A stretch of 64,000 nt of DNA. It comes from Terriglobus albidus. GTDB lineage: Bacteria > Acidobacteriota > Terriglobia > Terriglobales > Acidobacteriaceae. Shown here piece by piece: positions 7,267-18,153 of this stretch. Position 1 is the stretch's first letter. Every line of letters begins with the position of its first letter. Under the pieces are notes generated by a model that made no database searches, was not told where the DNA came from, and saw only the letters and a list, made by a program, of their open reading frames with translations. The position numbers and the translations under genes were made by a program. The stretch lies in contig NZ_JAGTAS010000050.1 of NCBI RefSeq assembly GCF_025685425.1, positions 124,001-188,000 of the forward strand. The letters run 5' to 3'.

Positions 7267-10200
7267 ATGTCAAAAAGACGTAGCCTTCTTCTCTTGCAGT
7301 TCTTGTTGTGGGTCGGGTGTTTTTGGGGGTACAACGCTTTCGGGCAGACACTCTATGGAACGTTGACCGGTGTTGTCAGCGATGCGACCGGTTCCGTTCT
7401 TCCCAACGCACAGATCACCGCAACCAACCCATCCACCGGTCTTACCCGCACCACCACGACCGACGCTTCAGGCAACTATCAGTTCACGGACCTGCCGCCG
7501 GGCTCCTACGATGTAACCTTCTCCGCGCCGAACTTCACGCAGAGTGTCAGCAAAGGTGTTGCTGTCAGCGCCAATCAGACCCGCCGTATCGACACGACGA
7601 TGTCACTGGGCGCGGTCTCCGACAAGATTGAAGTCACCACGGCTCCGCCGGCACTGCAGACCGATCGCGCCGATGTGAACTACGAGATCACCAGCACCCA
7701 GGTGCAGGAGCTGCCGACGACCTCCACCGCAGGCCGTAACTTCCAGGGGCTGTATCGCCTGATTCCTGGTGTGCCGCCGCCGACGGAGAACAACTCACAG
7801 GCAGGTAATCCGGGCCGTACCCAGGCAGTGACGGCAAACGGCATTGCGAACACCATCAACTCCACCAAGATTGACGGCGCGGCTGTGGGATATCCGTGGC
7901 TTCAATCGATCGTCGCGTATATTCCACCGACGGACTCGATCGAATCAGCCAACATTGTGACCAACAGCTTCAACGCCGAGCAGGGCGCAGCGGGTGGTAT
8001 CGCGGCAAACCTGATCGTCAAGAGTGGTACGAATAACTTCCACGGCAGTGCCTGGGAGTACAACTCCATTTCACAATTCAATGCACGTCAGTACTTCACG
8101 CGTGTTTCGACGACGCCGGTAACCCCGAAGAACATCTACAACGAGTACGGCGGGAACATCGGCGGTCCGATCATTAAGGATAAGCTCTTCTTCTTCTTCG
8201 GCTACAACAAGGTTTCTCTGCGCCAGTTCAAGACAGGCAATGCGATGAATGTGCCGCTTGCTGCGGTACGTGGAGGCAACTTCGCCGGTACCGGAGTGAC
8301 GATCTACGATCCCACGACGGGCAATGCGGACGGTTCCGGCCGTACGGCATTTGCGGGGAATGTGATTCCGAGCTCGCGGCTGAGCACGGCATCGCAGAAG
8401 ATTCTTGCCCTGCTGCCTACAGAAAAGATCAATGCCACTTCGGGTAACTATCCCGGAGGTGCGATTCTGCAGTTCGATCGCGCAGCCTATGACACAAAGG
8501 TGACCTACAATCCCACCACGAAAGCTACTGTCTTCGGCCGCTATTCTGTACAGCGTTCGCAGATCACTGATCCGCCCGCGCTCGGTAATGCCATTGGCAA
8601 CACCTGGGACGGAGGTCAGCCTGGCTCCGCACCCGGAACAATCCAGAACATTGGTATCGGCGCCTCGTATATCGTTACGCCGAACTTCGTGATCGACGGC
8701 AACGTCGGTTTTGTGCGCATCAATCTGGCAGCGCGCGCTCCGGACTATGGAAAGAACGTCGGTCTCGATACGTTGGGTATCTCTGGTACCAATGGTTCTA
8801 CACCTTTCCAGTCCGGTACGCCCGGCTTCATCGTCGCCAACAACTCAAGCTTCGGAAACTACATTCAGTCGAATCCGTTCCAATTCCGCGACATGCAGTA
8901 TGTCAGCAACCTCAATGCGTCCTGGACTCGAGGACGCCACACGATGCGTTTTGGCGGTGAGTATGTTCACTCGGCTATCAACCATCTTCAGGCGAACAAC
9001 GCCGGCCCGCGTGGGCAGTTCACGTTCTCTGGCGGTGTGACCGGCAATAACAGCGGTGCTACTGCGGATGGTCCGACCTACTATCGCGCGGTTGCCGATC
9101 TTCTTCTCGGTATGCCGCAGGCTATCGGCAAAACGGTACAGCTCTTTCAGCCAAACGGCCCGCGCTTTTCGAGCTTCAGCTTTTTTGCGCAGGATACATG
9201 GAAGGCTACGGCAAACCTGACCCTCAACTACGGCGTCCGCTATGAGTACTATCCGTTCGCGAATCGCGATCATACCGGTGTCTTCCGCTTCGACCCTGCA
9301 ACCAGCAATGTGCTGATCGGCGGTCGTGGCAATGTGCCGACCGACACGGGCGAAGATGTAGGGCACGGCATGCTGGTGCCTCGTCTCGGAATCAACTATC
9401 GCATCAATGACAAGACTGTGGTTCGCTCCGGTGGAGGCCTCACGGTCGATCCGGAAAACTTCCGCTTCTTCCGCGACTCTTATCCTGCTCTGATTACGCT
9501 GAACAACACGGGCGCGAATAACTACGTTCCCGCGGGGGCGCTCACGGCTCCGAACTCGTCGGCGCCGAACATGAATACACTGCCGAGCGGTACATTGGCC
9601 GCAGGGGTGCCAACAGTGGGTGTACCGGATATCTCTTCCGGTATTGTGTCTCTACCGTACAACTACACCACGCAGACCGCTCCGCAGAAGTGGCGTCGCG
9701 GTTATATCGAAACCTGGAACCTGTTCGTCGATCGTGACCTGTTCAAGGGGCTGGTTCTGAACCTCGGCTACGTCGGCACGCATCACGTCCGTCAGGTCGT
9801 CGGTATCGACATCAACGCGGGCGGCGTCAGCACGCTGGGCGCCAGCAGCCGTCCTCTTTTTGCCAACGCAAACGCTCCTGGCGGCGCGAAACGCTATACC
9901 GGAACCATTCTGAATGTTCTTCCTTGGGCCGATGAAAAGTATTCCGGTATGCAACTGCAGTTGAGCAATCGTAGCTCTTCACAGTTGCAGTACGGCTATG
10001 CCTATACCTGGTCGCACTATATGAATAACTACGACGCGGACAGCACGCTCGGAGCGGTTGCCTTCAATACTCCGGCGCTGCAGAAGCGTAATTTCGCCAA
10101 CTCGCAGTTCGATCGTAAACACCTCAACGTACTGTGGACCGTGTGGCAGATGCCTGTCGGTCGCGGACGTCGCTTCCTGAACCAAGGGATCGTCGCCAAC

Positions 10201-10668
10201 CTCGTCGGTGGATGGGATCTGAATACCATCATGACCTACTACAGCGGGCGCCCGTTCCAGATTACGGATAACTCGCAGGCCGGTAACGGAGATACCGTCG
10301 TACCCAACCAGGTAAGCCCGCTACAGCTCACCGGAACGAAGTACACCAGCGGATCCACCACGTATCCGTATTACTTCGTCAACAACGGCAACATCACCAA
10401 GCTGCCGAATGCGACTTCCAACGGCAACATGGGTCGCAACTCTGTCCGCGGCCCCGGCTACTTCAATCTGGATGTGGGACTCACGCGCAATATCCCCATC
10501 TGGAGAGAGATTTCTGTTGTGCTGAAGGCTGAGTCGTTTGACGTCACCAACACGCCGCAGTGGAGCAATCCCACTGCCAATGTGAATGACGCCGGCTTCG
10601 GTCAGATCACCAGCGTTCTCTCAACCAGCAACCGGACGCTGCGCTTCAGCGGACGCATCAAGTTCTAA
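7267..10668 (+). CDS. TonB-dependent receptor, Oar-like, carboxypeptidase-regulatory N-domain
   Basis: This is a predicted outer-membrane receptor of the acidobacterial Oar-like type. A signal peptide (to about residue 27, ending GYNAFGQ) precedes a carboxypeptidase-regulatory-like Ig-fold domain (LYGTLTGVVSDATGSVLPNA, residues about 29-110). A plug-like region and a long beta-barrel with alternating aromatic residues follow, ending in RTLRFSGRIKF with the terminal Phe typical of outer-membrane barrels. At 1133 residues it is much larger than classical siderophore receptors but normal for this group. The substrate is unknown, plausibly an oligosaccharide or peptide. CTGGAG sits eight bases before the start. 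It is divergent from a ROK repressor, which points to sugar-responsive expression. A hairpin follows the stop codon. Confidence 0.9.
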   Translation: MSKRRSLLLLQFLLWVGCFWGYNAFGQTLYGTLTGVVSDATGSVLPNAQITATNPSTGLTRTTTTDASGNYQFTDLPPGSYDVTFSAPNFTQSVSKGVAVSANQTRRIDTTMSLGAVSDKIEVTTAPPALQTDRADVNYEITSTQVQELPTTSTAGRNFQGLYRLIPGVPPPTENNSQAGNPGRTQAVTANGIANTINSTKIDGAAVGYPWLQSIVAYIPPTDSIESANIVTNSFNAEQGAAGGIAANLIVKSGTNNFHGSAWEYNSISQFNARQYFTRVSTTPVTPKNIYNEYGGNIGGPIIKDKLFFFFGYNKVSLRQFKTGNAMNVPLAAVRGGNFAGTGVTIYDPTTGNADGSGRTAFAGNVIPSSRLSTASQKILALLPTEKINATSGNYPGGAILQFDRAAYDTKVTYNPTTKATVFGRYSVQRSQITDPPALGNAIGNTWDGGQPGSAPGTIQNIGIGASYIVTPNFVIDGNVGFVRINLAARAPDYGKNVGLDTLGISGTNGSTPFQSGTPGFIVANNSSFGNYIQSNPFQFRDMQYVSNLNASWTRGRHTMRFGGEYVHSAINHLQANNAGPRGQFTFSGGVTGNNSGATADGPTYYRAVADLLLGMPQAIGKTVQLFQPNGPRFSSFSFFAQDTWKATANLTLNYGVRYEYYPFANRDHTGVFRFDPATSNVLIGGRGNVPTDTGEDVGHGMLVPRLGINYRINDKTVVRSGGGLTVDPENFRFFRDSYPALITLNNTGANNYVPAGALTAPNSSAPNMNTLPSGTLAAGVPTVGVPDISSGIVSLPYNYTTQTAPQKWRRGYIETWNLFVDRDLFKGLVLNLGYVGTHHVRQVVGIDINAGGVSTLGASSRPLFANANAPGGAKRYTGTILNVLPWADEKYSGMQLQLSNRSSSQLQYGYAYTWSHYMNNYDADSTLGAVAFNTPALQKRNFANSQFDRKHLNVLWTVWQMPVGRGRRFLNQGIVANLVGGWDLNTIMTYYSGRPFQITDNSQAGNGDTVVPNQVSPLQLTGTKYTSGSTTYPYYFVNNGNITKLPNATSNGNMGRNSVRGPGYFNLDVGLTRNIPIWREISVVLKAESFDVTNTPQWSNPTANVNDAGFGQITSVLSTSNRTLRFSGRIKF

Positions 10669-10744: not shown

Positions 10745-11416
10745 ATGCGAGGCCTTTCTTTTTTGCTCACTGTTTTGATGGCGGTAATGATGCATGGGCA
10801 GACACGTGTGGTGAACGCCGGCTTTGGCGGCAGAAACACCGCCGAGCTCGAAAAACGTTTCGCGCATGAGTTGGCGGAAGCCAAACCCGCCTACGTCGTG
10901 CTCTTTACCGGTACCAACGATGCATTGAACGACACCAAGTTTCTCACTCCATCGCAGACCAGAGAGAATCTCACCGCTATGGTCCGACAGGCCCAGGCTG
11001 CCGGAGCGTCCGTGGTTCTGGTGACCGTGCATGATCCAGATCTCACGCGGCTGCTGAAACGCCATCGGCCGGAGGCATACGGTGCTGTGCCGCCGCTGGA
11101 GCGGGTAGCCCAGGTTAATGCCGTGATCGAAGAGGTCGCCGGAGTCCACCATGCCGCGGTTGTCCCATTTCACGACATTCTGCAGCAGGCCGGCGGAGCC
11201 AGTGCCGAGCTCAGCACCGACGGCGTTCACCTCACGGTAAAGGGTTACGGCATGCTCGCAGCGGCGGTGCGGGCAAAGCTTCCACAGCAGATGCCTCCGA
11301 ATGTTTCGATTTTATGTATGGGCGACAGCCTGACCTATGGCATTGGTGTTCGCCCCGATGGCACGCCAGAAACCGCCGAAACTTACCCCGCGCAGTTAAG
11401 CGCTCTTCTTCGGTGA
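10745..11416 (+). CDS. Secreted SGNH/GDSL hydrolase with permuted motif order
   Basis: This 223-residue protein carries all the SGNH hydrolase blocks, but in the order II-III-V-I. After a signal peptide (MRGLSFLLTVLMAVMMHGQ) come VVNAGFGGRNT (block II, residues 22-32), FTGTNDALN (block III, 54-62) and STDGVHLTVKGY (block V, Asp159 and His162). Only then does the nucleophile block ILCMGDSLTYGIGV appear (Ser195), followed by YPAQLSALLR and the stop. In ordinary family members the GDS block is N-terminal and YP..L..LL runs straight into VVNAG; here those two ends are the protein termini. All catalytic residues are present, so activity as an esterase or lipase-like hydrolase is plausible. An upstream ATG at 10706 is possible, but it overlaps the hairpin and would mask the signal peptide. 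Confidence 0.85.
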   Translation: MRGLSFLLTVLMAVMMHGQTRVVNAGFGGRNTAELEKRFAHELAEAKPAYVVLFTGTNDALNDTKFLTPSQTRENLTAMVRQAQAAGASVVLVTVHDPDLTRLLKRHRPEAYGAVPPLERVAQVNAVIEEVAGVHHAAVVPFHDILQQAGGASAELSTDGVHLTVKGYGMLAAAVRAKLPQQMPPNVSILCMGDSLTYGIGVRPDGTPETAETYPAQLSALLR

Positions 11417-11452: not shown

Positions 11453-12736
11453 ATGGCAACGACTCTCCCTCCGCCGGTTCAGGAATCTTCGGAGACCTCC
11501 GGCGCCATCGAAGCGCATGTGCAGCGGGTGCTGCACAGTCCGCACTTCGCCCGGGCTGAAACGCAACGCAAGTTGTTGCAATACCTCTGGGAGCATCGCT
11601 CCGAGAATGTGAGCGAGTATGCCATCGCCACAGAGGCGCTCGGCCGGCACAGCAACTTCGACTCCACGACAGACGCTTCGGTCCGTGTCCATATCTCTCG
11701 CCTGCGCCGCAAGCTGAAGGACTACTACCAGCAGGAGACGGACGAGCCCGAGCTCCTGGTCATTCCCACCGGTACGCATCAACTGATGGTGCTCGACCAT
11801 CCGGCACCTTCGGTTACGGAGCCGCTTCGGGCGGCGGATCTCGATCCCGTGGCCATAGAGGAAGTGAAGCGGTCGGCGGTGCCGTTTCTGTGCGGAGCTA
11901 TCGTTCTCCTGGTCATGGCTGTCGTATGGCTGGCCTGGAGCAACCATGTTTTGCGCGCGACGAATGACCGCCATGCGCCGAATGCCTTCTGGGCCTCGTT
12001 CCTGGAGGGTTCAGCCCCGATTCGCATCATTCTGCCGACGCCGATCCTGTTTTCGTTTGCGAATGCCCCGACCTTCCGCTTCCGCTCCACTCAAGTTAAC
12101 GATTACAACGATATCCCCAAGGACCCCCAGTTCGAGGCGTTGACGAAGGATCTGGGGAAGCCGTTGTTGGAGCAACCCTACACCGTCTCCTGGGACACCC
12201 TCGCCGCCATCGATATGGCGCGCTACCTGGACTCGGTCGGCGCCAAACAGCGCGTCTCGTTCGATGTGACCCGGGACTTGTCCCCGATGGTCCTTGAACA
12301 GGCAAATGTGATTACCCTTGGGACTCACCAGACGCTCCAGCCGCTCCATGACTACCTGCAGGCGATGAACTTTTCGTTGTCGCAGTCGGAGCGACGGGTG
12401 ACCAATGCTCATCCCGCCAAGGGAGAGCAGGCGACCTACGAGATCATCCATAAGTCGAGGGATCGCGAGGTGCGTCCCTCCATTATTTCCATCCTCCCGG
12501 GCCGTGCACCGGGACTTAAGGTCCTGCTGATGCAGTCAGGCGATACGAGAGCTCTGGTTGCGCTGATCTCGTCTTCGGCCGGCTCGAACTCGATTGAGGA
12601 GATGTGGAGGAAAAACGGTTCACCGAAATACTTTGAAATGGTGACCTATACCGAGGTGGAGAGCAATCGGGCGCTCCGTACGTGGCCTGTGGCAATGCAC
12701 GTCTTCACCTCGCAAGCCCCTGCAAATTCAATGTAA
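11453..12736 (+). CDS. Membrane-anchored winged-helix regulator (CadC/ToxR-like layout)
   Basis: A cytoplasmic DNA-binding domain of the kind common in acidobacteria lies at residues about 22-95: HFARAETQRKLLQYLWEH, EYAIATEALGR and a recognition region DASVRVHISRLRRKLKDYY. One transmembrane helix follows (SAVPFLCGAIVLLVMAVVWLA, about 141-161), then an extracytoplasmic domain of about 260 residues with no recognised motif. This is the layout of one-component membrane regulators such as CadC or ToxR, which sense an external signal and act on DNA directly. The ATG at 11453 starts 36 bases after the SGNH stop; an upstream ATG at 11429 adds eight residues. It lies between the SGNH and the FAD oxidoreductase genes, which could be its targets. 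Confidence 0.78.
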   Translation: MATTLPPPVQESSETSGAIEAHVQRVLHSPHFARAETQRKLLQYLWEHRSENVSEYAIATEALGRHSNFDSTTDASVRVHISRLRRKLKDYYQQETDEPELLVIPTGTHQLMVLDHPAPSVTEPLRAADLDPVAIEEVKRSAVPFLCGAIVLLVMAVVWLAWSNHVLRATNDRHAPNAFWASFLEGSAPIRIILPTPILFSFANAPTFRFRSTQVNDYNDIPKDPQFEALTKDLGKPLLEQPYTVSWDTLAAIDMARYLDSVGAKQRVSFDVTRDLSPMVLEQANVITLGTHQTLQPLHDYLQAMNFSLSQSERRVTNAHPAKGEQATYEIIHKSRDREVRPSIISILPGRAPGLKVLLMQSGDTRALVALISSSAGSNSIEEMWRKNGSPKYFEMVTYTEVESNRALRTWPVAMHVFTSQAPANSM

Positions 12737-12789: not shown

Positions 12790-14418
12790 ATGCATTTCAT
12801 GACTGGATTGCTGCATCGCATATTCCCCCTTACTGCTGCTCTTCTTCTTTTCGCCCTACCAGGCATTTCGCAAAATACTCCACCGCCCGCTGACCTTGTG
12901 GTCTATGGTGGTACGGCCTCAGGAGTCATGACGGCCTATGCTGCCGCGAAGGAGGGGCTGCATGTTGTGCTGCTCGAGCCTGGCACACACCTTGGCGGCA
13001 TGGTGACCGGTGGTCTTTCGGCGACGGATGTCGCGCACTTTCAGATCATCGGCGGCTACGCCCGCGAGTTCTACCGGCAGGCTGCTGCCCACTACGGCGT
13101 GCACACCCTGAACAAGCACGATGACTGGCTCTCGGAGCCGAAGGTGGGAGAGGCGATCTTCCAGCAGTGGCTCAAGCAGGCGGGCGTCGAGGTTCAGTTT
13201 CACGAGCGCCTGAAGGAGCACGGCGGTGTTTCGAAGTCGGGAACAACCGTTGTCTCCATCACGACGGAAGATGGCAAGGTGTGGAAGGCAAAGACCTTTG
13301 CTGACTGCTCCTATGAGGGTGACCTGATGGCGCAGGCGGGTGTGCACTATACCGTCGGCCGCGAGGGGATCGAGGTGTATCACGAAGATCTTGCCGGAGT
13401 TCGCGTCGACACCCCCAAGCACCAGTTCCTGTGGAAGATCTCACCTTTCGATGAGAAGGGGAAGCTGATGCCTGAGGTGGATCCCGGGCCGATGGGGGCA
13501 AACGGCGCGGGGGACAAGAAGGTGCAGGCCTATAACTTCCGCATGATCCTGACCAACGATCCTCAAAACAAGCTGCCATGGACGAAGCCGGCAGGCTATG
13601 ACGCTGCCCGCTTTGCGCTACTGGCGAAGTACCTGGGCGAGTGGAAAGAGCACATGCATCGCGAGCCGACCTTCCGTGATGTGATGAACCCGGTAATGAT
13701 TCCCAACCATGAGGCCGACTTCAACAACAACGGCGCCTTCTCCAGCGATTACATCGGCAAAAGCTGGACCTATCCCGACGCCGGTTATGACGAACGCAAG
13801 AAAATCTGGGACGACCACCTGCTCTATACCAAGTCGTTCCTCTGGTTCCTGGCTTCCGATCCTCGGGTGCCGAAGCAACTGCAGGCTGAGGTCAACAGTT
13901 GGGGCCGGGCGAAGGACGAGTTTGTCGATACGGACGGCTGGCCGAACCAGCTCTACATCCGCGAGGGGCGCCGCATGATCGGTATGTATGTCATGAAACA
14001 GGCTGACCTGCAGACCGATCGTACCAAGCCTGACTCCATTGCCATGGGTTCCTACAACAGCGACTCACACAACATTCAGCGCGTCGCTATGCCCGACGGC
14101 GGTGTCCGGAACGAGGGAGATGTACAGGTTCCGGTTAAGCCCTATGAGATCGCCTTCGGAACCATTCTTCCCAAGAAGGAGGAGACGGTGAATCTGCTTG
14201 TCCCGGTCTGTTTGTCAGCGTCGCATGTCGCCTATTCCTCGGTCCGTATGGAGCCGCAGTACATGATGCTCGGTCAGGCTGCGGGCGTGACGGCTGCGAT
14301 GGCGGTTCGGGGGAAGACGGCTGTGCAGGAGATCGATTTGAAGGCTCTGCAAAAGCGTCTGCGTGAGCAGAAGGCCATTCTCCATCTCGATCAGGAAGAA
14401 TCCGGCGATAGTCTCTGA
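12790..14418 (+). CDS. Secreted FAD-dependent oxidoreductase (FAD_oxidored type)
   Basis: The protein has a signal peptide (residues 1-28, ending FALPGISQ) and then an N-terminal FAD-binding Rossmann motif, VVYGGTASGVMTAYAAA (residues about 38-54), a variant of the GxGxxG fingerprint as seen in the PF12831 FAD-dependent oxidoreductases of environmental bacteria. A C-terminal segment RMEPQYMMLGQAAGVTAAM matches the second FAD contact of this group. At 542 residues the length is typical. The substrate is unknown; relatives are often found near glycan-degradation genes. Export suggests periplasmic action. The ATG at 12790 gives a clean signal peptide, 53 bases after the regulator stop. A strong palindrome follows the stop codon. 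Confidence 0.85.
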   Translation: MHFMTGLLHRIFPLTAALLLFALPGISQNTPPPADLVVYGGTASGVMTAYAAAKEGLHVVLLEPGTHLGGMVTGGLSATDVAHFQIIGGYAREFYRQAAAHYGVHTLNKHDDWLSEPKVGEAIFQQWLKQAGVEVQFHERLKEHGGVSKSGTTVVSITTEDGKVWKAKTFADCSYEGDLMAQAGVHYTVGREGIEVYHEDLAGVRVDTPKHQFLWKISPFDEKGKLMPEVDPGPMGANGAGDKKVQAYNFRMILTNDPQNKLPWTKPAGYDAARFALLAKYLGEWKEHMHREPTFRDVMNPVMIPNHEADFNNNGAFSSDYIGKSWTYPDAGYDERKKIWDDHLLYTKSFLWFLASDPRVPKQLQAEVNSWGRAKDEFVDTDGWPNQLYIREGRRMIGMYVMKQADLQTDRTKPDSIAMGSYNSDSHNIQRVAMPDGGVRNEGDVQVPVKPYEIAFGTILPKKEETVNLLVPVCLSASHVAYSSVRMEPQYMMLGQAAGVTAAMAVRGKTAVQEIDLKALQKRLREQKAILHLDQEESGDSL

Positions 14419-14595: not shown

Positions 14596-17500
14596 ATGAA
14601 GCAAATTCTCAAGACGCAAGGTCGTTGCTTTGGCCTTCTTCTCGTTCTACTCCTTCTCGTTTCGTCTATGTTGCGAGCGCAGGTTGCGAACGGTGTCATC
14701 ACCGGACGCCTGACCGACAGTACCGGCGCCGTTGTCGCCAACGCTCAGGTGACGCTTACCAAGACCGATACCGGCCTCACGTTGACGACCCAGACCAACA
14801 GTGATGGCATCTACTCTTTCCTCTCGCTCCAGACCGGTCCCTACAAGGTGCAGGTTTCGCAGTCAGGTTTCAAGTCGGCGGAGACTACGCTGACCCTCAG
14901 CGTTGGTCAGACCGCCAATATCGATCTCGCGCTTGAGATCGGCTCCAGCACCGAGACCATCAATGTCGAGTCTGCCGGCATGGCCGACCTTGAGGTCAGC
15001 GATGCGACCATCAGTTACACGGTGCGAACCAGGCAGGTCAGCGACCTCCCGCTGAATGGCCGCAACCCCTATGGTCTTGCAGCGCTGTCACCCGGTATTG
15101 CTCCTGGCGGCGGTTTCGGACAGGGTGTGAGCCAGACACGTGGCGCCGTGGTGGCCGCGGGCACGAACAACTTTGAATCCAATGGCGGCGCTGCCGGTTC
15201 GAACGAGATCTTCTTTGACGGTGTGCCGGTAACGGTCTGCTGCCAGGGACAACCAGCGCTAACCCCTTCAGTTGAGGTTGTCGACCAGTTCAAGGTCATC
15301 ACCTCAGTGCCTTCGGCGCAATTTGGACGCTCTTCGGGTGGAATTCTGAATATCGTTTCGAAGACCGGCACCAATCAGATCCACGGCACGGCCTATGACT
15401 ATCTGCGCAACGAGAAGTTGGATGCAGCGCCATACTTTCTGAAGTACAACAACACACCGCCTATCCGCGGACGCAATGACTTCCGCGCACCCCACAAGTT
15501 CAACCAGTATGGCTTCTTCCTGAACGGTCCGGTATGGCTGCCGAAGATCTATAACGGCCGCGAGAAGACCTTCTTTACCTTTGGGTGGGAGGCGGCGCGT
15601 AACGTGCTGTATAACGCGGTGACGACAACTGTGCCGACGGCGTTGCAGCGTCAAGGTGTGTTTAGTGAAGCTCCCGGAATGATCTACGACCCCTACAGCA
15701 CCAGCGGCAACACCCGTCAGCCTTTGCCTGCGGGCTGCAACTCCACCGGGTGCTATGGCGCCGGTAAGCTCGTGCAGAACATCAACCCTGTTTCACAGAA
15801 GCTGCTGCAGTTTCTTCCGCTGCCCAACCTGTCTGGTACAAGCAACAACTACGTGTATGCCAACCGCACCAGCGATCAGGTAGATCAGTTCAATTTCCGC
15901 GTTGATCATAACTTCTCCCCATCGCAGCGTGTCTTCGTACGCGGCACTCGTGACACCAATACGCATCACGAGAACGACCTTTTTAATCAGGCCAATGGTC
16001 CTAGCGGCATCAATCAGACGCTTCGCGCGTATCTCTTTGCCTTGGGTGATACATGGACCATCACGCCGAATCTTCTGCTGCAGACCAACTACGGTTTTGC
16101 TTACCAGAAGAACTTCCAGATCCCCCAGAACTACACCGGCTACAAAGCTTCTGACTACGGCTTCACCAACCTTGATTCACAGCAGCAGCTTCCTGGTTTG
16201 CCGTACATCGGTATCAGCGGCTACGCCAATATGTCATATGCCACCAATACCAATCGTTGGGAGCACTACAGCCACTTCCTCGAATCGACAGCAGTGTGGC
16301 AGCACGGCAAGCACACCCTGACCTTCGGTTACGATGGCCGTCTCATCATCGAGCACCAGCAGAGCGCCGGCAACGGTCCGGGTTCACTATCGTTCGACAC
16401 CACGCTGACCAATGGACCGAATGTTACCAGCGCGGCGGCTTCCAATCAGGCCCAGTTCGACTCCTTTGCGGCCTTCCTGATGGGAACCTTCACCAGTGCC
16501 TCGATCGTGCGTCAGGTGAAGCCGGCATATGACTCCTGGTATCACGCCATGTATGTGCAGGAAGACTGGCGTGCAAATTCGAAGCTGACGATGAACTTCG
16601 GCCTGCGTTATGACATCGAGACCGGATATCGTGAGCGGCATAACCAGTGGGCAGATCTGGACTTGTCGGCAGCGAATCCGTTGTCGAGTTCGGCGTTGCC
16701 GTTCACGGGCGGAGCACGTTATCTCGGCAGCAATTTCCCCAATCGCACGTGGAAGACGTACTACAATAAATTCGCTCCTCGCATCGGCCTTGCCTTCCAG
16801 GCAACCAACAAGACTGTGCTGCGCGCGGGCTACGGTCTGATGTATCTGCCTACATCGCAGCGCTTCTACGGTACAGGTACGCTTGGCTACTCGCAGCAGA
16901 CGCAAACGAACTTCACCAGCACGAGCGTCCCCACCACTACGATCGCGAATCCATTCCCGTCGGGTGTGTTGCTGCCAGCAGGACCGAGTGCCGGTGTGAC
17001 TGCCGGAACGGGTACTTCTGTCAGCGGCGCGATTTATAACAATCCACTGCCATACTTCCAGCAGTTCAACGCAGGTGTTGAGGAGCAGATCGCCAATGGC
17101 GTCGTGGTTCACCTCAACTACGTCGGCAGCCACGGTGTGCACCTTCCCATCAACTACCGGCCTAACGATCTGCGCGATCAGTACTGGGGAGTTCCTGGTA
17201 GCCAGTCGCAGATTGACTACCTCAACGCATCGGTAACAAACCCGTTCTACGGCAATTCCCTGGCCGGGCCGCTTGCGACTCCTGCAGCCGTGCAGCGGGT
17301 GCAGTTACTTTCGCTCTATCCGCAGTACACACCGAATACCGGTATGTCGAACGGTTCCATCACAGTTGCCCAGATGGGAATCGGCGCCTCTATCTTCCAT
17401 GCGGTGCAGGCGTTCATCACCATCCAGCGCACCAAAAATCTTTCGGCTACCGTCAGCTACACTTTCTCGAAGCTGATGGGGAATACGTCGCCCCTGTTGA

Positions 17501-18153
17501 CGGGCTTCCTCAATGTCAATGGAACGCCAGGCTTCCAGAACAGCTATCACATCCAGGATAAGGAGTGGTCTGTGATGGCTACCGATATCCCACATCGTAT
17601 CGTTGCCAATGCCAATTATTCGCTGCCCTTCGGACGCGGACAGGCACTTGGTGGCAATGTCAGCGGTTGGTTGAACCAGATCGTCGGCGGATGGAAGCTT
17701 AATAGCATCGTCTCGGTGCAGTCAGGTTACGCGTTGGGTATCACCCAGACGGGTGGTCAGGCCTACTCTGGCTCTCGTCCCTTCTTCGTCTCCGGCGCTG
17801 ATCCGCTTACCTCGGGCGATGTCCATCAACGCCTTGGCGGTAATGGACAGACGCAGGGTTATCTCAATCCCAATGCCTTCCGCAAAGCAACTGCTTTCGA
17901 GTTGGGCGATGTACCTCGGAGTTCCGGACGCATGCGCAGCGCGGCCGGTTTCCAGGATGACCTGTCGCTGTTGAAGGATTTCACTATCCACGAGCGTCTT
18001 GGACTACAGTTCCGCTTTGAAGCTTTCAACCTTCTCAATAAGGTCCAGTTTGGCGTGCCAAATACGCAGTTCGGATCATCGACGTTCGGCAACATCACAT
18101 CGCAGGCGAACTCTCCGAGGAATATACAGACGGCGCTGAAGCTGACCTTCTAG
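14596..18153 (+). CDS. TonB-dependent receptor, Oar-like, carboxypeptidase-regulatory N-domain
   Basis: This is an outer-membrane receptor of the same acidobacterial type as the one at 7267. The signal peptide (residues about 1-30) contains the hydrophobic run FGLLLVLLLLVSSML. The regulatory-like domain starts with GVITGRLTDSTGAVVANA, and the plug region contains the conserved SDLPLNGRNPYGLAALSPG. The barrel runs to the C-terminal IQTALKLTF with terminal Phe. The length is 1185 residues. A Cys-rich turn VTVCCQGQP near residue 215 is unusual for the group. It follows the FAD oxidoreductase gene by 177 bases, with a strong palindrome between them, so it may be co-regulated with it. The substrate is unknown. 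Confidence 0.9.
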   Translation: MKQILKTQGRCFGLLLVLLLLVSSMLRAQVANGVITGRLTDSTGAVVANAQVTLTKTDTGLTLTTQTNSDGIYSFLSLQTGPYKVQVSQSGFKSAETTLTLSVGQTANIDLALEIGSSTETINVESAGMADLEVSDATISYTVRTRQVSDLPLNGRNPYGLAALSPGIAPGGGFGQGVSQTRGAVVAAGTNNFESNGGAAGSNEIFFDGVPVTVCCQGQPALTPSVEVVDQFKVITSVPSAQFGRSSGGILNIVSKTGTNQIHGTAYDYLRNEKLDAAPYFLKYNNTPPIRGRNDFRAPHKFNQYGFFLNGPVWLPKIYNGREKTFFTFGWEAARNVLYNAVTTTVPTALQRQGVFSEAPGMIYDPYSTSGNTRQPLPAGCNSTGCYGAGKLVQNINPVSQKLLQFLPLPNLSGTSNNYVYANRTSDQVDQFNFRVDHNFSPSQRVFVRGTRDTNTHHENDLFNQANGPSGINQTLRAYLFALGDTWTITPNLLLQTNYGFAYQKNFQIPQNYTGYKASDYGFTNLDSQQQLPGLPYIGISGYANMSYATNTNRWEHYSHFLESTAVWQHGKHTLTFGYDGRLIIEHQQSAGNGPGSLSFDTTLTNGPNVTSAAASNQAQFDSFAAFLMGTFTSASIVRQVKPAYDSWYHAMYVQEDWRANSKLTMNFGLRYDIETGYRERHNQWADLDLSAANPLSSSALPFTGGARYLGSNFPNRTWKTYYNKFAPRIGLAFQATNKTVLRAGYGLMYLPTSQRFYGTGTLGYSQQTQTNFTSTSVPTTTIANPFPSGVLLPAGPSAGVTAGTGTSVSGAIYNNPLPYFQQFNAGVEEQIANGVVVHLNYVGSHGVHLPINYRPNDLRDQYWGVPGSQSQIDYLNASVTNPFYGNSLAGPLATPAAVQRVQLLSLYPQYTPNTGMSNGSITVAQMGIGASIFHAVQAFITIQRTKNLSATVSYTFSKLMGNTSPLLTGFLNVNGTPGFQNSYHIQDKEWSVMATDIPHRIVANANYSLPFGRGQALGGNVSGWLNQIVGGWKLNSIVSVQSGYALGITQTGGQAYSGSRPFFVSGADPLTSGDVHQRLGGNGQTQGYLNPNAFRKATAFELGDVPRSSGRMRSAAGFQDDLSLLKDFTIHERLGLQFRFEAFNLLNKVQFGVPNTQFGSSTFGNITSQANSPRNIQTALKLTF

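Follow-up and report, generated by a model that had tools for sequence, protein, structure and literature searches.

Can a hydrolase of the SGNH/GDSL type carry its catalytic serine close to the end of its chain? This question is raised by gene P0001 in a 64,000-nucleotide stretch of the Terriglobus albidus genome (assembly GCF_025685425.1, contig NZ_JAGTAS010000050.1, positions 124,001 to 188,000 of the forward strand), referred to as the window. The protein contains all four SGNH blocks (I GDS, II G, III N, and V DxxH), each present once, in the order II-III-V-I. Because this is not the order I-II-III-V, the hydrolase is a permuted relative of the PF13472 family and not a canonical member. 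Three lines of evidence (the sequence, its conservation, and the family) give strong support to a natural circular permutation at the junction of blocks I and II. The overall best explanation, to which we assign a probability of about 0.88, is an exported SGNH/GDSL ester hydrolase with a circularly permuted chain. The features of the gene are listed below, with invariance given for alignment A4 of all 17 permuted proteins found.

10745–11416, forward strand: circularly permuted SGNH/GDSL hydrolase gene P0001, 223 amino acids (open reading frame, Pfam, rotation scores, 17-row alignment)
10745–10801, forward strand: signal-peptide-like segment, residues 1–19, directly entering the new first strand (short basic start, then a hydrophobic stretch, by sequence)
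10808–10831, forward strand: block II, VVNAGFGG, residues 22–29, with what we take to be the oxyanion glycine (V22, G26, and G29 invariant in 17 of 17)
10910–10921, forward strand: block III, GTND, residues 56–59, with oxyanion Asn58 (G56, N58, and D59 invariant in 17 of 17)
11219–11230, forward strand: block V, DGVH, residues 159–162, with Asp159 and His162 (invariant in 17 of 17)
11276–11305, forward strand: linker, residues 178–187, between the last helix (old C-terminus) and strand 1 (old N-terminus); variable, without helix or strand in the models
11306–11323, forward strand: old first strand, residues 188–193, now near the C-terminus (DSSP strand in the model of the mature protein; 188–192 in another model)
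11318–11347, forward strand: block I, MGDSLTYGIG, residues 192–201, with nucleophile Ser195 at 11327–11329 (G193–T197, G199, and G201 invariant in 17 of 17)
11375–11410, forward strand: old first helix, residues 211–222, with YPAQLSALL, now the C-terminus (helix in the model; Y214, P215, and L218 invariant)

Block order and rotation of the hydrolase

The initial annotation, made from the sequence alone, had proposed this permutation; its open reading frame, the stop after YPAQLSALLR, and the residue numbers of all blocks are as read in the sequence. The catalytic residues that it named, Ser195, Asp159, and His162, are retained, and are invariant in all 17 relatives together with Asn58, Gly29, and Gly26. 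The same holds for C191, the GDSLT motif, G199, G201, Y214, P215, and L218. Position 10745 is the likely start, because the open frame in loci L008, L009, and L012 begins just 12 codons upstream of the ATG. From the signal-peptide-like start, we infer that the hydrolase is exported. In proteins L016–L018 and L010, cysteines lie close to the end of the hydrophobic start (for example, LLCCASLPAQ) and might, for some members, indicate a lipoprotein signal; no such cysteine is present in the window protein.

The unrotated hydrolase matches PF13472 as a GDSL lipase with an E-value of 1.7e-28 and 100.7 bits, over profile positions 32–176 only. When residues 186–223 are placed in silico before residues 20–185, the match becomes single and continuous, spans profile positions 1–176, and reaches 114.2 bits (+13.5). 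The same rotation raises the score of PF00657 from 57.4 to 68.2 bits (+10.8), with the match then beginning at profile position 1, that of DUF459 from 28.1 to 33.5 bits (+5.4), and that of NonGDSL from 28.1 to 32.6 bits (+4.5). In phmmer comparisons with solved structures, the match of the rotated query begins at the N-terminal strands of 1yzf and TesA (4jgg), and the gains are small, from 52.4 to 54.0 and from 46.9 to 48.0 bits, respectively.

A local hidden Markov model (HMM) was built from 67 canonical SGNH rows, 66 of which have a recognisable block I. The mature hydrolase scores 115.0 bits against this model unrotated and 129.8 bits rotated. Among 204 rotations scored, the top starts are residues 182–188, with 129.5–129.8 bits, and 23 rotations gain at least 10 bits. 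Rotated forms with 500 shuffled C-termini have a mean of 116.3 bits, a standard deviation of 0.9, and a maximum of 121.7 bits. Rotation increases the scores of all 17 permuted proteins, by 7.1–14.7 bits.

The reverse comparison gives a matching picture. When the HMM of the permuted family is applied to the ordinary enzymes L045, L051, and L053, its C-terminal part matches before its core, with a gap of 5–9 residues; the block-I matches are weak singly, with E-values of 3e-4 to 4e-3. The C-terminal part also precedes the core in three proteins from viral contigs (L151–L153), in which the block-I matches are again weak singly (1e-5 to 1e-4) and the YP..L helix of block I continues into block II. 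These viral-contig proteins have the canonical order, and their block I (LCLGDSLT.G......YP..L) closely resembles that of the permuted family. The rotation scores and the reverse HMM order therefore indicate that each SGNH element is present once and that the chain opening alone has moved. The filled PF13472 profile, the margin over the shuffled controls, and the conservation in 17 genomes bear out the permutation proposed initially.

Distribution, origin, and competing explanations

The homologue search suggested in the initial annotation recovered the same block order in 17 Acidobacteriaceae genomes. The full-length permuted protein is encoded, with E-values of 2.6e-75 or better, by these 17 of the 398 genomes searched in the window's family; 11 are among the 19 from the window's genus and six among the 62 from a second Acidobacteriaceae genus. 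Seven candidates per genome were scored in full in the family search and in a search of 396 genomes across the phylum, and all candidates were scored in the second genus. The phylum search gave no further match better than 2.4e-23, and the listed matches free of internal stops extend no further than model position 189, hence none reaches block I. In the second-genus search as well, the non-family matches listed without an internal stop end at or before position 189, and longer ones cross stop codons. A scan of genome contigs for exact peptide patterns found three family members (L008–L010) and a canonical TesA-like protein (L011).

The architecture is kept down to 43% identity, and few parts of the mature protein vary as much as linker 178–187 in alignment A2, which contains 14 of the 17 permuted proteins. 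The ratio of non-synonymous to synonymous substitution rates (dN/dS) among the four closest genes is 0.085–0.146 for the core and 0–0.103 for the C-terminal segment, where it is below that of the core in all six pairs, as calculated from ~27 synonymous sites, which is a point against the main reading. The moved segment and the whole frame are under purifying selection.

In the first tree of rotated proteins, calculated from 17 permuted and 67 canonical rows with duplicate loci per genome collapsed, the permuted proteins form one clade with a Shimodaira–Hasegawa-like approximate likelihood ratio (SH-aLRT) support of 99. The second tree combined 54 of these 84 rows (17 permuted, 8 TesA-like, and 29 of the 59 from the large canonical group) with three viral-contig rows, and excluded the long-branch rows L002, L003, and L086. 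The permuted clade has a support of 98/94 and is present in 97% of 200 bootstrap trees. Judging from these trees, the permutation probably arose once, before the family spread through two Acidobacteriaceae genera.

The rotated query was run against 150 genomes of the family and 399 of the class to look for a parent of the permuted gene. Canonical matches are 27–40% identical, with E-values of 8.5e-19 or weaker. Searches of plasmids and phages gave seven records and one record, respectively, all with at most 34.1% identity to the query; the two that cover 80% of it (H1 and H2) are canonical, with block I first. The viral-contig proteins do not join the permuted clade in the tree. Adjacent canonical SGNH genes, apparently tens of bases apart, occur in the second genus (L062/L066 in G098 and L069 in G309). 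Such pairs mean that raw material for permutation by duplication exists, and no more; they too are not joined to the permuted clade. The window's own genome encodes four canonical SGNH enzymes, and canonical ones are also present in some other genomes with the permuted gene.

Three further observations weigh against the proposed permutation and its single origin. Both trees come with warnings of long branches, and they do not resolve which canonical group is nearest. Neither the rotated-query searches nor the trees revealed a parent, a tandem intermediate, or a canonical sister, and the duplication followed by trimming put forward in the initial annotation is not supported as stated; the route may have been that one or a fission with subsequent fusion. 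Lastly, the hydrolase has a three-layer alpha/beta/alpha core, which a fold search matched to canonical SGNH structures, but the C-terminal segment, including the DSSP strand 188–193, was modelled with low confidence from a 4-row alignment, with a mean predicted local distance difference test score of 48–62 in the last four blocks of the mature model. The low confidence may be just an effect of this alignment; in the proposed fold, the C-terminal strand would pack beside strand 2.

The low confidence would also suit an enzyme that is domain-swapped or has two states, in which Ser195 sits on a C-terminal strand-helix clasp that binds to a partner subunit or moves as a switch between open and closed positions. 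The location of the nucleophile segment at the chain end, past a variable linker, is compatible with such an arrangement. However, the shallow alignment may by itself explain the low confidence, the linker is short, and nothing direct points to a swap, which we consider improbable, although it is the strongest of the alternatives.

A truncated tandem duplication, in which the C-terminal block I is left over from a second domain that was lost, leaving a catalytically dead binding protein, would be a stage through which permutation by duplication passes, and could likewise account for the poorly modelled C-terminus. The invariance of GDSLT in 17 of 17 proteins and the low dN/dS of the segment speak against decay. 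Furthermore, the C-terminal block I is the only nucleophile, because this block is missing from the first domain. We rejected the dead remnant on conservation and dN/dS, and regard it as very unlikely.

There is similarly little chance that the protein is a divergent polysaccharide O-acetyltransferase of the AlgX/PatB1 type. These enzymes have the same fold permuted, with the same ends joined (V to I), and the hydrolase is apparently exported. Nevertheless, the cut differs (II-III-V-I, not V-I-II-III), and the motifs are the canonical GDSL and DxxH, not GTSYS or KDS with DxH or DHHW; on this block order and these motifs, membership in AlgX or DHHW families was rejected. Pfam gave no match to such a family at E-values up to 1, and a scan of the three conserved genes of the cassette, described below, revealed no MBOAT-like partner.

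A frameshift or misassembly joining two genes, in which the C-terminal block I would begin another SGNH gene, is conceivable given the adjacent canonical pairs, but this artefact, against which the initial annotation had cautioned, is ruled out for practical purposes by the same frame and architecture in 17 independent genomes, by the regulator or other genes, and no SGNH core, following block I in the fetched stretches, and by purifying selection across the whole frame.

The gene cassette and the proposed function

Downstream of the hydrolase are three genes that form a cassette with it, and a decayed copy of the cassette was found in genome G034:

11453–12736, forward strand: CadC/ToxR-like one-component regulator with a winged helix (PF00486), an apparent transmembrane stretch, and an outer domain (Pfam; membrane stretch by sequence)
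12790–14418 (start approximate), forward strand: FAD-dependent oxidoreductase, third cassette gene (Pfam, PF12831, E-value 6e-105)
14596–18153, forward strand: TonB-receptor-like outer-membrane protein, last cassette gene (Pfam, PF25183 and CarboxypepD_reg)
L146 (G034:C8) ~9900–10394 and L065 1471–1710: decayed cassette copy

The outer domain of the regulator has no Pfam assignment; its sole sub-threshold match, SASA with an E-value of 0.16, is regarded as noise. A second TonB-receptor-like gene (PF25183) lies just upstream of the hydrolase, at window positions 7267–10668, and among the loci compared, only the closest relatives (G128/L012, L008, and L009) have it there.

The regulator, oxidoreductase, and receptor genes are contiguous in all 15 regulator loci fetched. 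The hydrolase gene adjoins the regulator in 12 of the 17 genomes, ten of them in 20-kb stretches and two on shorter contigs (L008/G248 and L009/G270); within these 12, it is divergent from the regulator in G289 and G098. In G327, it sits at the opposite end of the cassette. The regulator was searched for in 81 genomes of the two genera with an E-value limit of 1e-40, and 19 genomes gave matches: the 17 with the permuted gene, and G388 and G750. The best matches in the 17 have E-values of 6.6e-76 (G270, cut by the contig end) or better. Those in G388 (4.3e-59) and G750 (2.6e-56), which are 33–35% identical, are taken as paralogues by a cut picked after the gap was seen; some of the 17 also carry paralogues, as second copies at 5.9e-73 or weaker. 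Orthologue-level regulator matches and the permuted hydrolase thus occur in one and the same set of 17 genomes among the 81.

Two facts count against a functional link. The 81 genomes are related, and the co-occurrence trials are not independent. In addition, the hydrolase is away from the cassette in four of the 17 genomes (G194, G095, G166, and G031), and since it lies elsewhere in these genomes, the link there is co-occurrence alone. In G034, which has no regulator match at 1e-40, fragments of the hydrolase (residues 22–80), the regulator (397–427), and the oxidoreductase (27–55) remain in cassette order within ~500 bases. The displaced, inverted, and decayed cases make chance co-occurrence unlikely, despite the kinship of the genomes.

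In the second tree, permuted genes from the two genera are interspersed (loci L142, L140/L137, and L141 bear on this observation): that of G098 groups with that of G289 (100/100), and those of G347 and G130 are inside groups of the window's genus. The regulator, oxidoreductase, and receptor of G347 are 68, 81, and 83% identical to those of the window, which exceeds the identities of seven genomes from the window's own genus (G289, G219, G277, G194, G166, G095, and G031). Either transfer between genera or old paralogues may explain the intermingling.

In the mechanism that we propose, the helix that follows block V, formerly the last, would lead through the short linker into what used to be the first strand. 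The new chain ends would lie between helix 1 (block I) and strand 2 (block II), and the signal-peptide-like segment is attached there. The expected fold is an ordinary alpha/beta/alpha SGNH core, with C-terminal strand 188–193 in the usual place of strand 1. Catalysis would depend on Ser195, His162, and Asp159, with Gly29 and Asn58 forming the oxyanion hole. A single permutation event would have been followed by maintenance through purifying selection. The protein is most likely an ordinary Ser-His-Asp ester hydrolase whose nucleophile strand comes from the C-terminus, an activity that we infer from its sequence. The signal-peptide-like start and the receptor and oxidoreductase neighbours suggest an exported glycan or glycoside esterase. 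We give roughly even odds to such a de-acylating role, in which the enzyme would take O-acyl groups off a glycan or glycoside that its three cassette neighbours (the receptor, the FAD oxidoreductase, and the CadC-like regulator) handle. The co-occurrence with these three genes gives access to a module for nutrient handling in soil bacteria that has yet to be described.

Comparison with known SGNH systems

Canonical PF13472 enzymes (TesA-like 4jgg, 1yzf, the GDSL lipases 3p94/4iyj, Axe2, and AlAXEase 7ddy) resemble the hydrolase in having all four blocks with canonical motifs, and match it in sequence and, over the core, in fold. The hydrolase core is 19–30% identical to these chains over the aligned part. 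The order of the blocks is I-II-III-V in the canonical enzymes, whereas in the hydrolase it is II-III-V-I, with the nucleophile at residue 195 of 223.

Circular permutation of the SGNH fold has been published before. AlgX/AlgJ are described as permuted in the order H-S-G-N/Y (PMC9487903, PMC4148444), PatB1 in the order H-S-G-N (PMC9487903), and WssI likewise (PMC10302187), and such permuted proteins have been set against true SGNH enzymes (PMC5697884). The claim in the initial annotation that no family of this kind is described must hence be narrowed: permuted SGNH proteins with another cut are known, and the order II-III-V-I was not found in the literature searched, which covered few subscription journals. 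The novelty of the hydrolase is therefore moderate, and lies in the cut between blocks I and II combined with canonical motifs. AlgX and PatB1 are absent from the fold-search matches listed, which is uninformative, as the alignments follow chain order.

In AlgX/AlgJ and WssI, as in the hydrolase, a natural permutation joins the block V side to the block I side (PMC4148444, PMC9487903, PMC10302187). AlgX/AlgJ are opened between blocks III and V (H-S-G-Y), as are WssI and PatB1, whereas the hydrolase is opened between I and II (G-N-H-S). AlgX/AlgJ are O-acetyltransferases with GTSYS and DxH motifs, a cap, and extra strands; the hydrolase has GDSLT and DGVH in 17 of 17 proteins and no extra domain. 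PatB1 of B. cereus, from the DHHW family, also has a naturally permuted SGNH core (PMC9487903, PMC5697884), but it is reported as a Gram-positive cell-wall O-acetyltransferase with KDS and TDHHW motifs in the HSGN order, and the hydrolase has neither these motifs nor this order.

We tentatively suggest, as a possibility somewhat short of even odds, that the hydrolase is a further independent SGNH permutant beside AlgX/AlgJ and PatB1, the first with canonical motifs and a cut between I and II. It would have a single origin, within Acidobacteriaceae, as the esterase dedicated to a so far undescribed cassette whose genes move and decay together, and the nucleophile strand of the hydrolase would be a C-terminal clasp that finishes the active site only once the last residues are in place. 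The family would provide a clean natural experiment on circular permutation, with one origin, 17 descendants, and canonical SGNH enzymes for comparison in some of the same genomes, and the small single-domain hydrolase should express easily. Together with AlgX and PatB1, it would show the SGNH circle opened at two places with the same old ends joined.
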